Positions 9,422-34,273 of a stretch of DNA of 64,000 bases are shown here, piece by piece (within the stretch, counting starts at the first letter, position 1; each line of letters starts with the position of its first letter). The notes below the pieces were generated by a model. That model was given only the letters and a program-made list of their open reading frames with translations. It did not search any database and had not been told where the DNA came from. The stretch comes from Gammaproteobacteria bacterium (lineage in GTDB: Bacteria > Pseudomonadota > Gammaproteobacteria > GRL18), in contig JADGDG010000010.1 of assembly GCA_016744995.1 (NCBI GenBank), forward strand, positions 1-64,000. Direction: 5' to 3'. The position numbers and the translations under genes were made by a program.

Positions 9422-9775
9422 TTACACCTGATTAAAAACTCTTCTGGCTGATTCAATATTTAAAGCCGTTTCAAAAGGCGGCGGCTCCTTCATAAAACAC
9501 GACAAGCCATAAGCTGCTGAGGGCTTCATATGAATAGCTACTAACTGGGTATTATTTAATTTACAAAGAGTGAACAGATATTTTAACCATTGGTAATAGG
9601 TTTTATCAATCAGGGCAAGTTCTTTTAAATCGTAAATAAGCCCCTGTATGCGATTTTTTTGCAGAAACTCAATAATATCCGCAGCATATTGCTCAGGATT
9701 TGCAGGATCAAGGCTCACTCCCGGCTCTAATAAAACGCACTGGCTGGACAAAACAGTTAAATGCATGCCCTGCAT
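9422..9775 (-). CDS. RsbS-like STAS-domain protein, divergent
   Basis: A 117-residue single STAS domain with the pattern of RsbS, the stressosome scaffold and RsbT antagonist. The core strand-loop GLIYDLKELALIDKTYY aligns with the region that in Bacillus RsbS carries the phosphorylated Ser59 (IDS). Here lysine (K58) occupies that position and threonine (T59) follows. The second conserved block (GIxPxVAxTL) is also altered. The ATG at 9775 overlaps the TAA of the upstream rsbR-like gene (TAATG), indicating translational coupling. The start at 9793 would run further into rsbR. It is likely part of an RsbRS complex. Its odd phosphosite means control may differ from the Bacillus paradigm. Confidence 0.7.
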   Translation of the reverse strand: MQGMHLTVLSSQCVLLEPGVSLDPANPEQYAADIIEFLQKNRIQGLIYDLKELALIDKTYYQWLKYLFTLCKLNNTQLVAIHMKPSAAYGLSCFMKEPPPFETALNIESARRVFNQV

Positions 9776-10647
9776 TATGACTCTCCAGCACAAACAACAA
9801 TATTCAGATGACGGAATGCCTCTTTTAATCCTTCTGAAAGCGTTGATCGGGTGACAACATCACCCAGATCAATATTCAGATTTGTCAATGCACGGGCTAT
9901 TTCCGGACGTATCCCGGTAATAATTGGTGTTGCCCCCATTAATTTAACTGCTCGCATCATTTGGATCAGATGATGTGCTACCTGCGAATCAATCGTTATG
10001 ACGCCAGTGACATCAATCACTACCATACGTGAACGCTCTGTTTCAATTTTTTGTAATAATTTTTCCATAACCACCATGGTTCTTGACGAATCAAGACTGC
10101 CGATAATGGGTAATGTCAGCACACCATCCCAAATCTCTGTGATAGGTGTTGAGGTTTGTAAGAGTTCTTCTTGCTGTGCGTTAATAGTAAATTCTTTTTC
10201 TCCCAGATAGATTTCAAAAATATGCAAAGTCATGTCATTGAATATTGAAGCCATCATAAGCAATACATCACGATACTGAGCCATACTCATGGCCTTATCT
10301 TCATGCAGACCTTCAATTAAACAGGTCTGTAAAAAATGCATATATTTCACAAATTGATCCATGGTGCCGCCACGGATCTGGATTTGCTCAGAGCAATTAT
10401 TAAAAAATGAAATTAATGCCTGATATTCAGGGCTGTCTCTATCACTGTATTGCTGTGTGTGTAAAATTCCCACAAATAGTTCAAGAAACTCAATCGAATA
10501 ATCTTCAATTTCTTCAGTTGACAATAAGCTATCATCACCAAAGGCATCTGCACCTTTAGTCTCAATTAATTCTGAAATATTACCGATATTTAACTTAAGG
10601 TTTTCAATCAATAATTCTGCAGTTGATAATTTTTTCTTTCTGCTCAT
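9775..10647 (-). CDS. rsbR: RsbR-like stressosome sensor protein with C-terminal STAS domain
   Basis: A 290-residue protein. Residues 1-160 form a helical N-terminal sensory domain of no identified type, and residues 165-285 form an RsbR-type STAS domain with the family signature TPITEIWDGVLTLPIIG, then VIDVTGV and ITGIRPEIARAL. In Bacillus RsbRA, Thr171 and Thr205 are phosphorylated by RsbT. The Thr171 position is Ser221 here (IDSQVAHH), still phosphorylatable, whereas the Thr205 position appears to be Ala253. The gene follows the kinase/phosphatase fusion by 20 bp and is coupled to the RsbS-like gene. Such modules form megadalton stress-sensing complexes in bacteria with and without sigma B. 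Confidence 0.85.
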   Translation of the reverse strand: MSRKKKLSTAELLIENLKLNIGNISELIETKGADAFGDDSLLSTEEIEDYSIEFLELFVGILHTQQYSDRDSPEYQALISFFNNCSEQIQIRGGTMDQFVKYMHFLQTCLIEGLHEDKAMSMAQYRDVLLMMASIFNDMTLHIFEIYLGEKEFTINAQQEELLQTSTPITEIWDGVLTLPIIGSLDSSRTMVVMEKLLQKIETERSRMVVIDVTGVITIDSQVAHHLIQMMRAVKLMGATPIITGIRPEIARALTNLNIDLGDVVTRSTLSEGLKEAFRHLNIVVCAGES

Positions 10648-10667
10648 AACTACCTCTAACGCTATTA

Positions 10668-11816
10668 TTATGTTTTTTTAATTGCAATCATTGACTGATC
10701 ATCACTACTTCTGCCTTTCTTATTGCCAAGAAAAAAACAAATCAGCTGTGGATGTTTATCCCAAAGTCCGGGAAAATCAGTTAACTTCCAGTTTCTTCGG
10801 ATACCATCTGAAGTGCTGAAAATTAATTCATTGCTTTCTAATGTATACTTCTGTCGACTATGACTGCGTGATTCAATACCAAGAATTCCAGAAGCCACTT
10901 CAAGATCGTGTATCACACCTAAAGGGTTCTCCTTTGAGCAGTTGAGTGTAAAGACACGCATATCACCCACAGCAGAATATTCACCCTGCCCTGCTTCAGC
11001 ATTATATTTCAATGCCACAACAGCACCTCCTGCCGTGGATTTTAACTGGCGTTTGCTTATATCCAGCATTGTTTTAACACCCTGCTTATGGATATCAGCA
11101 CCTGCATTTCTCATTTTTTTTACAATTAATTCAGCCTCTGAGCCATGACCGGTAGCATCAAGATGCAGACAGCTCAATTTTTTTGTATCCAGCTGTAGCC
11201 AGAGGTCATCACCATTTTGAGCAAGATCATGATACGAACGACAAAAAGCACCATATTGGTAGCGCGCAGGTTTTTCATTTTCTGAGCGATAAAACCGACC
11301 CCAGCAAGCCACTCCATGCCAGGACTTTTGATTCGTTAAGGACTTTTGACCCGTTAAGGACTTTTTACTCGTTAAGGACTTTTGATCAGTTAAGGATTTT
11401 TGCTCCGTTAAAGTAAATATACCGGATTCATGAGCCATCCGACTAATTGAACCTAAGCCCTTTCCCATCGTCTTTGATGTCGTATAACCATCCTGAAAGG
11501 CTTTTTCCACATCCTCAATTCCCGGCCCATAATCCATTGCAAAAATATCTATAGTGACTGGTAATGTCTGGCTGTTTTTAATTCCATCGTTGTTATGATT
11601 TTTGTTATTAAACCCTTCATTATTAAACCAAAGCTGCACCATTCCGGTTTTTTGAGAATACTTTATTTGATTTGAAAGCATTTCACTGGCTACAATCTGC
11701 ATGTTCTCAATGCAAATAGAATCAAAGCCCAATTTTTTTGCCAGAGTTTTCAAACGCACTTTAAATAGAACCAGACTGCTTTCATCCTTAACAACCTGTT
11801 GTATCGAAAGTTTCAT
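10668..11816 (-). CDS. Fused RsbT-like serine kinase and PP2C (RsbX/SpoIIE-like) phosphatase
   Basis: A 382-residue fusion. Residues 1-135 form an anti-sigma-type HATPase domain: N box SEMLSNQIKYS, G1 box DYGPGI, G2 box GKGLGS. Residues 138-165 form a repetitive linker of KSLTxQ units. Residues about 185-380 form a PP2C domain with DATGHG (220-225) and a C-terminal DDQS metal site. RsbT phosphorylates RsbR and RsbS, while RsbX dephosphorylates them. Having both in one chain would couple the forward and reverse reactions. The gene lies between a diguanylate cyclase (33 bp upstream) and rsbR (20 bp downstream). The assignment rests on motifs and context. Confidence 0.8.
   Translation of the reverse strand: MKLSIQQVVKDESSLVLFKVRLKTLAKKLGFDSICIENMQIVASEMLSNQIKYSQKTGMVQLWFNNEGFNNKNHNNDGIKNSQTLPVTIDIFAMDYGPGIEDVEKAFQDGYTTSKTMGKGLGSISRMAHESGIFTLTEQKSLTDQKSLTSKKSLTGQKSLTNQKSWHGVACWGRFYRSENEKPARYQYGAFCRSYHDLAQNGDDLWLQLDTKKLSCLHLDATGHGSEAELIVKKMRNAGADIHKQGVKTMLDISKRQLKSTAGGAVVALKYNAEAGQGEYSAVGDMRVFTLNCSKENPLGVIHDLEVASGILGIESRSHSRQKYTLESNELIFSTSDGIRRNWKLTDFPGLWDKHPQLICFFLGNKKGRSSDDQSMIAIKKT
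11321..11410 (-). repeat. 18-bp tandem repeat, five copies, inside the kinase-phosphatase gene
   Basis: Five contiguous imperfect 18-bp units, on the plus strand of the form aggacttttgattcgtta, start at 11321, 11339, 11357, 11375 and 11393. They encode a run of six-residue KSLTxQ-type units in the linker between the HATPase and PP2C domains. The unit length is a multiple of three, so copy-number changes would lengthen or shorten the linker without breaking the frame. Confidence 0.9.
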
Positions 11817-11849
11817 CGGTAAAGCACCCAGCCATTTAATTCAGATAAT

Positions 11850-12878
11850 TCAATCATGAAGCAATTCTTTTTTTTCTGATAATTCATAATCAATAACAAC
11901 CTGTCCTCGCCCTCTTTCTTTAGCTTCATACAAGGCTTCATCCGTTCTTGCAATTAATGACTCGACCGTATCATCTGCTGTTAATAATGCAATCCCAATA
12001 CTTACCTTGCCATCCATTTTAACTAATATTTTTTCTGCTGCCCGACGTGCAATATCTGTCTCTGCAAAAAAAACAATAGCAAATTCATCACCACCCATAC
12101 GGCAAACATGATCAACATCTTTCCTGGTAAAGCGGGTCATATGCCTGGCCATTTTTTTCAATATTTCATCACCAGCCTGATGCCCAAGAGTATCATTTAC
12201 CTGTTTAAAATAATCCAGATCAAGCATGATCAGAGACAAAACATTGCCTTGCCTCTGACAATGCTTCACCCCTTCACTTAATCGCCGGTCATAAGCGCCT
12301 CTATTATAAATCTGGGTCAGACTGTCAATTTCTGCCGTACGAATACTGTCTTGTAATTGTGAACGCTTGGTATCCAGTTTTTGTTCCAGCTGTCGGAGTT
12401 CCTGCGCAGCACGCTCTTTAGCTGCCTTCATTTCTTTGCGGATATTTTCGTTATGCTGACGCAATAATTCAGGATCACTGACTTCACTTTGTAAAGATAA
12501 GTCTTCTTTAATTTTTTCAATATGCTCAAATGAAGGCGCTTCAGATAAACGAATAAAAAATTCATTTTGTATACTATTCAATGCGGTATCACTTGAACGA
12601 CTATAAAGACCAAGGGATAGTGTCTTATCGGCAAGCACAAGCTGCAGATTAAAAAACTCATTGTCTTTTTCACTGCGAAATTGAAGGCTCTCAAGAATTT
12701 CGGGCAATCGTGCCGCGCCCATAAAAGGACTCACATTCAACATTTCCAGACATTTCATCACAAATGTTGAAAAGCGCTGTTTATCAGCTTCTTTAAAAAA
12801 AGGGAGTTTTAATAGAACAACAGTTTTTGCACCTGATAAATTATCAGGCCCTGATGTTTTTTCTGACTTGAATACCAC
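11850..12878 (-). CDS. Diguanylate cyclase (GGDEF domain) of the stressosome operon
   Basis: A 342-residue cytoplasmic protein with an N-terminal domain of unknown fold (about 15-130), a long charged coiled coil (about 138-182) and a GGDEF domain with an intact active site (GGDEF at 262-266). It makes cyclic di-GMP from two GTP. The product-inhibition I-site (RxxD ending six residues before GGDEF) reads KDVD, so feedback inhibition may be weak or absent. It is the first gene of the operon leading into the RsbT-like, RsbR and RsbS genes. Stressosome modules linked to diguanylate cyclases are known in Vibrio, so cyclic di-GMP is the likely output. Confidence 0.9.
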   Translation of the reverse strand: MVFKSEKTSGPDNLSGAKTVVLLKLPFFKEADKQRFSTFVMKCLEMLNVSPFMGAARLPEILESLQFRSEKDNEFFNLQLVLADKTLSLGLYSRSSDTALNSIQNEFFIRLSEAPSFEHIEKIKEDLSLQSEVSDPELLRQHNENIRKEMKAAKERAAQELRQLEQKLDTKRSQLQDSIRTAEIDSLTQIYNRGAYDRRLSEGVKHCQRQGNVLSLIMLDLDYFKQVNDTLGHQAGDEILKKMARHMTRFTRKDVDHVCRMGGDEFAIVFFAETDIARRAAEKILVKMDGKVSIGIALLTADDTVESLIARTDEALYEAKERGRGQVVIDYELSEKKELLHD

Positions 12879-13008
12879 AGTGTCAAACCTATTTGTATTA
12901 ACTTTTTTGTTTTATTATTCATGCTATTATGTTTCTATTTATAGTACAGATTAAAATTAATGCAAATAATATTAGAGCTAATTAACTTATCAACCATCAT
13001 CCCCCTGT

Positions 13009-13074
13009 TATTTGACAGAAAGTGAAGGGTTATTTAACAGAAAGTGAAGGGCTATTTAACAGCAAATGAAGAGT
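13009..13074 (+). repeat. 22-bp tandem triplication spanning the MATE gene start
   Basis: Three exact-period 22-bp units begin at 13009, 13031 and 13053, of the form tatttaacagaaagtgaagg plus two bases. The third unit contains the ATG of the MATE gene, and the equivalent position in the first two units is GTG. Each of the first two units carries a GAAGGG motif that resembles a ribosome binding site. Loss or gain of a unit would alter the leader length and the number of such motifs. Confidence 0.85.
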
Positions 13075-14883: not shown

Positions 14884-15291
14884 ATGGTTATTGATACTGG
14901 TAAGGCAAAAATTAACTTATTTAATGAAACAGACAATATTATTGTGGTTGACATTTATGCTGACGGTGAATTAAACAAGAGTGATCTTAACAATATTCAT
15001 CAAGCTATTGAAAAATTTGATGTATCAATCCCTGTAGATACTATTTGTATCAAATCAGGAGAAAACTATCTTTCAGAGGAAGCATTTAATTATTCTATCA
15101 ACCATAATTGCCTGCACAATAAAATTGTTTATATTATCAAGCATATGAAAGATATTCACTTCCCCTCAGAAGCTCAGAAAACTTATTTCAAAGATCATCT
15201 GGTAGATTTCTGCACCTCAACTGATGAGGCCTATTACCTATTAAAAGCTAAATCGCTTCAGCACCAGCCTTTAAAGTCACTATCCATCTAA
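14884..15291 (+). CDS. Hypothetical protein, possible SpoIIAA-like fold
   Basis: A 135-residue soluble protein. The predicted alternation of strands and helices (IIVVDIYADGELN, then a helix, DTICIKSG, a helix, KIVYIIK, and a terminal VDFCTSTDEAYYLL) resembles SpoIIAA-like/STAS-related small proteins, which often end in a strand followed by an EA(W/Y)-type helix. No catalytic motif is visible. The start is an ATG after a long AT-rich leader containing ACAGGTG about 9 bases upstream. No function can be assigned. Confidence 0.6.
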   Translation: MVIDTGKAKINLFNETDNIIVVDIYADGELNKSDLNNIHQAIEKFDVSIPVDTICIKSGENYLSEEAFNYSINHNCLHNKIVYIIKHMKDIHFPSEAQKTYFKDHLVDFCTSTDEAYYLLKAKSLQHQPLKSLSI

Positions 15292-15722: not shown

Positions 15723-16035
15723 TGAATTCTCCTATAACTTATTGACTGGTGTAGAATAACTCGATTTTGCCATTTTTCACCCAATTTTTACAAATTTTAA
15801 TACAACGTTAAAATTGATTTGAAGCTATAAATGTAATTATTATGATTTTAATCAAAAATTACTTATTTGGAATTATTCTACAACCTCAACGACAAAGTCA
15901 GCCGGGAATTTTTACCTCTGTTAGATTCACTATTAGTACTTTATTTCTTGAAATAAATGGGTTTAAAAACATGGAGTATAGGAAAAAGATAGATTAAAGC
16001 AGTAATTATCAGCCCTGAGCTAATAAAAAAAGAAG
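15723..16035. other. Intergenic region upstream of the ABM gene and downstream of rnpB
   Basis: About 310 AT-rich bases. It should hold the promoter of the ABM-domain gene and the 3' processing/termination region of RNase P RNA, both on the minus strand. I see no protein gene, repeat or clear factor-binding site. Confidence 0.4.
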
Positions 16036-16418
<383 letters not shown>

Positions 16419-33949: not shown

Positions 33950-34273
33950 TTATTTAGCGGACAGTGGCAATATTTCATTTAGACCACTAATTCGGGCAAT
34001 TTCGTACATTTTTGCAGGCAAATTTAAAAAAGTTATTTTTTTACCAGCCTGTTCAGCTTCGCGATACCATTCAACTAATAATGCCAGACCCGAACTGTCA
34101 GAACGTTCTAGTTGCGACAAATCAATATTTATCGTATTTGTTTCATCAGTAAATAATGAAAGCTTATTTTTTTTCCAAAGTTCTGGTACCGTTTTGAAAT
34201 TTAACTGGCCTATGACTAAGTAGTGCCCCATAGAGACTTTTTCAAGTTGTACCGTTGCAGAATTTTCTGTCAT
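33950..34273 (-). CDS. mlaB: STAS-domain subunit MlaB of the Mla phospholipid transporter
   Basis: A 107-residue cytoplasmic STAS protein that binds and activates the MlaF ATPase. The conserved core NIDLSQLERSDSSGLALLVEW includes the DSSGLALL signature of MlaB. It starts 48 bp after the end of mlaD and is followed 14 bp later by ibaG. In most genomes mlaC stands between mlaD and mlaB, but here it is missing. Confidence 0.9.
   Translation of the reverse strand: MTENSATVQLEKVSMGHYLVIGQLNFKTVPELWKKNKLSLFTDETNTINIDLSQLERSDSSGLALLVEWYREAEQAGKKITFLNLPAKMYEIARISGLNEILPLSAK

Follow-up and report, generated by a model that had tools for sequence, protein, structure and literature searches.

Control of a diguanylate cyclase by a stressosome is known from Moorella and has been proposed for Vibrio, Chromobacterium and Herbaspirillum (PMC9237108, PMC7647112). 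In Moorella, the RsbT homologue MtT is described as acting on the cyclase MtG (PMC7647112, PMC4976288), RsbU_N and RsbT are reported to control MtG (PMC12143880, PMC7647112), and coiled-coil linkers have been proposed to relay such signals to GGDEF domains (PMC12143880). SiaABCD and HsbR-HsbA-HsbD from Pseudomonas and BgrUVW-BgrR from Sinorhizobium also place a cyclase under a partner switch of phosphatase, kinase and antagonist. Here we describe four adjacent minus-strand genes in a 64,000-nucleotide stretch of DNA from a gammaproteobacterium (positions 1 to 64,000 of contig JADGDG010000010.1; hereafter the window). They span positions 9422–12878 and are transcribed in the order diguanylate cyclase (DGC), HATPase-PP2C fusion protein (KX), RsbR and RsbS-like protein. 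A sequence-only reading had proposed them as a stressosome-like operon, and all four open reading frames were recovered at the same positions. On the evidence below, they probably form a stressosome-like partner-switching module with cyclic di-GMP (c-di-GMP) as its output.

The components are of stressosome type, as that reading held, but two departures keep the set from being a canonical RsbRST/RSTX module: it has no separate RsbT, and the phospho-acceptor of its RsbS is not conserved. With the canonical RSTX systems (B. subtilis, Listeria and V. vulnificus, and the Xanthomonas and Paraburkholderia operons) it shares an RsbR with sensor plus STAS domain, a predicted RsbS-type STAS protein, an RsbT-type HATPase, an RsbX-type PP2C (here a domain of KX), the predicted RsbR acceptor positions and the HATPase-PP2C layout of many RsbX proteins. 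Unlike them, it has its output gene first and RsbS last, and its HATPases form a clade of their own (100/100, unrooted tree) apart from both RsbT and the RsbX N-terminal domain, so that grouping them with either was not upheld.

The Moorella thermoacetica stressosome with MtG resembles the module in pairing stressosome-type proteins with a diguanylate cyclase target and a c-di-GMP output, the latter presumptive here. However, MtG is described as carrying RsbU_N and GAF domains and its kinase MtT as a separate protein, whereas the module has neither RsbU_N nor a separate RsbT. No RsbR sensor or stressosome core has been described in the Sia, Hsb and Bgr systems; the module's phosphatase, in contrast to theirs, lacks a response-regulator domain (family scans of the window KX and of other members found no receiver domain, unlike HsbR), and its antagonists appear to be STAS proteins of RsbR/RsbS type rather than of SiaC type. 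SiaD has a helical stalk, as does the model of our cyclase, but such stalks are shared by many cyclases. The suggestion that this is a little-described variant holds in so far as we found no prior description of the module in the open-access literature, a scope that leaves absence unproven; stressosome control of a cyclase as such was already known from Moorella. Two points are unusual: neither the operon nor the window's genome yielded a separate RsbT, and the cyclase carries an unclassified N-terminal domain in place of the RsbT-binding RsbU_N.

Gene Order, Distribution and Likely Output

A search for the same four-gene order in relatives bore out the rearrangement that puts the cyclase at the head of the operon and RsbS at its end: a script scored 22 complete loci and found DGC-KX-R-S on a single strand in every one, and a locus found later, in genome G589, is the 23rd. 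The module is present in other members of the genus and family. When named genomes were scanned, it also turned up in Sulfuricellaceae, Gallionellaceae, a Halorhodospira metagenome bin and unclassified Gammaproteobacteria. A KX profile run against a class sample matched 17 of 369 genomes, 16 of them at E ≤ 1e-77 and well apart from canonical RsbX; the 17th (G332, 1e-45) proved to be a canonical R-S-T-X operon. The phylum sample contributed one further member, G589, along with five weaker matches that were fully or partly inspected, four of which have a separate RsbT before RsbX. In the fifth (G551, locus L147), an R-S module comes with kinase and phosphatase fused; as in a Nonomuraea locus (L119, scanned only), a single chain carries HATPase and PP2C, and the stretch shows no separate RsbT. 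The G551 module differs from ours in that R and S come first, the HATPase scores closer to RsbT, and a histidine kinase-response regulator lies alongside. One genome, G049, carries both this module and a canonical operon with a separate RsbT.

For all four genes, the ratio of nonsynonymous to synonymous substitution rates (dN/dS) against a relative in the genus is well below 1, although dS is near or past saturation and the values are rough. Together with the conserved order, this puts the operon far beyond chance. The patchy distribution within the genus (4 of 16 genomes) could be read as the mark of a chance cluster or a decayed, functionless remnant, a view to which we give almost no credence, contradicted as it is by intact active-site residues, purifying selection and a gene order kept across many families.

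No sigma B homologue was found in the whole genome, as the sequence-only reading had claimed; the best match scored 81.5 bits against a SigB cut-off of 315 bits. The cyclase leads each of the complete loci, even where cyclases share as little as 32% identity, and its GGDEF motif is invariant across the family, in agreement with the proposal of c-di-GMP as the likely output. Both the constant place of the cyclase and the lack of a SigB-class factor above cut-off count against the alternative that the switch proteins act on another target, such as an anti-sigma factor or a histidine kinase with its gene at a different site, and that the cyclase is a mere neighbor. We regard this as very unlikely, even though stressosome outputs are diverse (PMC9237108) and the genome has further partner-switch genes on contigs C14 and C35.

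Domains and Predicted Activities

The coordinates of the genes, domains and key codons are listed in Table 1.

Table 1. Features of the four-gene module, with coordinates in the window.
Feature	Coordinates	Strand	Remarks
Diguanylate cyclase (DGC) gene, first in operon	11850..12878	-	GTG start, 342 amino acids; N-terminal domain, coiled-coil stalk, GGDEF (E=1e-35)
DGC N-terminal domain, residues 18-131	12486..12827	-	Predicted structure; no known family; found across module family
DGC coiled-coil stalk, residues 136-183	12330..12473	-	Single long predicted helix running into GGDEF
GGDEF domain of DGC, residues 182-325	11904..12335	-	GGDEF motif intact
KX, fusion of an RsbT-type HATPase (kinase) and an RsbX-type PP2C phosphatase	10668..11816	-	382 amino acids
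HATPase domain of KX, about residues 1-135	11412..11816	-	N-box and G-box residues
PP2C domain of KX, residues 165-381	10674..11324	-	Four aspartates
RsbR, helical RsbRD_N-like sensor plus STAS	9775..10647	-	290 amino acids; STAS E=3e-14
RsbR Ser187 codon (taken as B. subtilis RsbRA T171 position)	10087..10089	-	Alignment
RsbR Ser221 codon (B. subtilis RsbRA T205 position)	9985..9987	-	Alignment
RsbS-like single-domain STAS protein	9422..9775	-	117 amino acids, best start ATG at 9775
RsbS Lys58 codon (B. subtilis S59 phospho-acceptor position)	9602..9604	-	Alignment

KX had been read as an RsbT-like kinase fused to a PP2C phosphatase. The fusion is real, but RsbX is commonly built in this way: in many RSTX operons, those of Xanthomonas, Paraburkholderia, Deinococcus and Halobaculum among them, such an RsbX stands beside a separate RsbT. 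A HATPase-PP2C fusion has precedents; the oddity is its occurrence without a separate RsbT. The family HATPase_c_2 was matched in 19 of 19 KX family members at a loose threshold, while the window KX matches the SpoIIE/PP2C family just above its cut-off; the best solved relatives of the PP2C domain are 3zt9 (deposited as SpoIIE) and B. subtilis RsbX. Across the family, the HATPase N-box (E45/N49) and G-box (D95, G97, G99, G118, G120) and the PP2C aspartates (D203, D220, D337, D373) are invariant. Because these catalytic residues and the GGDEF motif are all invariant, kinase, phosphatase and cyclase are predicted to be active.

In the window KX, HATPase and PP2C are joined by a K-S-L-T-rich linker encoded by five in-frame copies of an 18-base repeat (11321–11411), which at this length is absent from the relatives aligned. 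An apparent DGC-KX fusion in G007 (locus L016) was rejected, as the reading passes through a run of unknown bases. The genome of the window also holds two other partner-switch gene groups (L107 and L108, on contigs C35 and C14), made up of a response regulator-PP2C protein plus a small HATPase, and of a STAS protein plus a response regulator-PP2C-HATPase protein.

RsbR consists of an N-terminal sensor and an RsbR-type STAS domain. The best solved match to its full model is the Listeria stressosome RsbR (7b0u), over its whole length (285 aligned columns, E=6e-13), and by sequence it matches the V. vulnificus and Listeria stressosome RsbR chains at E=1e-40 and 1e-38; at a loose threshold, RsbRD_N gave weak matches to 20 of 24 members, the best at E=6e-5. 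Ser187 is an invariant serine in the family, and we take it to be the T171 position on the basis of the alignment to Listeria RsbR and the phosphosites of the latter. All 24 aligned members have Ser or Thr at position 221, which corresponds to T205, both in the solved-structure alignment and by the equivalence Thr233 = T205 in the V. vulnificus paper; the same two comparisons led us to reject the D-S221 position as T171. Both phospho-acceptor positions thus appear to be retained.

The last gene of the operon was present as proposed, except that its start is the ATG at 9775 rather than an upstream TTG; this ATG overlaps the rsbR stop codon as TAATG. Its product is probably an RsbS-type single-domain STAS protein, as a family-only profile ranks solved RsbS first (E=2e-7, and 4e-7 in a second run).

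In the cyclase model, an N-terminal domain of mixed alpha/beta type is followed by a long helix and then by GGDEF; the predicted topology of the N-terminal domain is strand-helix-helix-strand-strand-strand-helix. A structure search found WspR, SiaD and other cyclases; the 50 matches listed are all cyclases, and it is in the stalk plus GGDEF that the model resembles WspR and SiaD. The topology had suggested a degenerate HATPase, an identity that profile comparison, Pfam and solved-structure sequences did not support.

Proposed Switch and Its Coupling to the Cyclase

In the mechanism that we favor, RsbR, with its RsbRD_N-like sensor and STAS domain, and the RsbS-like protein would form the sensing core, and KX would do the jobs split elsewhere between RsbT and RsbX. 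Its HATPase would bind the STAS core and phosphorylate RsbR at Ser187/Ser221, and its PP2C domain would take the phosphate off again. A signal at RsbR would shift KX (or RsbS) between core-held and free states, and whichever is freed may then target the cyclase at its N-terminal domain and coiled-coil stalk, altering the pairing of GGDEF domains.

Several points weigh against this reading. The window KX itself matches HATPase families (HATPase_c_2) only weakly. A separate RsbT elsewhere in the window's genome was not found: there and in seven other carriers an RsbT profile found none, its sole match at E ≤ 1e-8 being KX, and the same profile does detect separate RsbT in the positive controls G049, G105 and G332. 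At the S59 acceptor position, the RsbS-like protein has Ser or Thr in 3 of 25 members; the other 22 have Lys (Lys58 in the window), Gln, His, Pro, Glu, Arg or others. With the acceptor lost in most members and no separate RsbT, the canonical release switch cannot work unchanged. RsbU_N is missing both from the window cyclase and from the 25 of 48 Pfam families listed for 19 cyclases. The distance matrices of the four genes correlate (r=0.71–0.81), a point in favor of the module, but one to be expected of any operon inherited as a unit. Lastly, we only infer that the proteins form a complex, which way phosphate moves and how the switch contacts the cyclase. As to the acceptor, B. subtilis RsbS-S59A does not abolish signaling (PMC3944199) and V. 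brasiliensis RsbS is also reported to be without the known acceptors (PMC4976288), so its loss does not exclude stressosome function.

Within the favored mechanism, coupling to the cyclase could take two forms. In the first, which we consider quite possible, freed KX would itself bind the cyclase at its N-terminal domain and stalk, much as RsbT binds RsbU and MtT binds MtG. In RsbU, a coiled-coil linker mediates the action of RsbT (PMC12143880), MtT is described as binding and attenuating MtG (PMC7647112), and dgc and kx adjoin in every complete locus, often overlapping, though gene adjacency is weak evidence of contact. Since no RsbU_N was found on the cyclase, whose predicted N-terminal topology is mixed alpha/beta as opposed to the four-helix bundle of RsbU_N, coupling must differ from that in Moorella at least in the docking domain. 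In the second form, which we hold more tentatively, the RsbS-like protein or RsbR would bind the cyclase stalk or N-terminal domain in the manner of SiaC or HsbA; RsbS would serve as adaptor rather than kinase trap, and KX would merely set the level of free STAS protein by phosphorylating RsbR. This would suit an RsbS that has lost its acceptor position yet keeps Y60, W63, C71, P99 and F101 as family-specific conserved residues, and there is precedent in Pseudomonas, where SiaC binds the SiaD stalk (PMC8457831) and HsbA is described as binding HsbD (PMC7647112). SiaD (7e6g) is also among the top structure matches of the cyclase (E=6e-15), but that match is confined to the GGDEF domain and helical stalk common to many cyclases, and no sequence relation was found between the STAS proteins of the module and SiaC.

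The most specific version of the mechanism would have RsbT and RsbX replaced by one bifunctional kinase-phosphatase, RsbS acting as a non-phosphorylated adaptor, and the undescribed N-terminal domain of the cyclase as docking site; we think this full combination rather doubtful.

Neighboring Genes and Other Features

The module is flanked by a putative pyruvate dehydrogenase subunit gene (judged from sequence and from neighbors in relatives) and by a divergent MATE transporter gene, and it lies between the same two genes in the relatives with both sides readable (L013, L015, L016 and L017). In the first three of these loci, the space between the pyruvate dehydrogenase gene and rsbS is filled by genes that differ between species, by eye a PAS-like protein (L013), a response regulator and histidine kinase (L015) and an EAL-type protein (L016). 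The intergenic region that separates the divergently oriented MATE and cyclase genes holds a 22-base repeat in three copies (13007–13071), a possible regulatory site. Near the operon, a plus-strand open reading frame of 135 amino acids (14884–15291) has no family assigned. On the minus strand, the window also encodes the bacterial RNase P RNA, class A (16032–16418; Rfam RF00010, 333.5 bits), and another small STAS protein in a 115-amino-acid open frame (33956–34216).

Significance

The stressosome outputs of Gram-negative bacteria are mostly unknown. In this module, nature provides a compact setting in which to ask how a stressosome can signal when a separate RsbT and the acceptor serine of RsbS are both missing, and its four proteins, with their measurable enzymatic output, are a set from which stressosome control of c-di-GMP in Gram-negative bacteria could be rebuilt.

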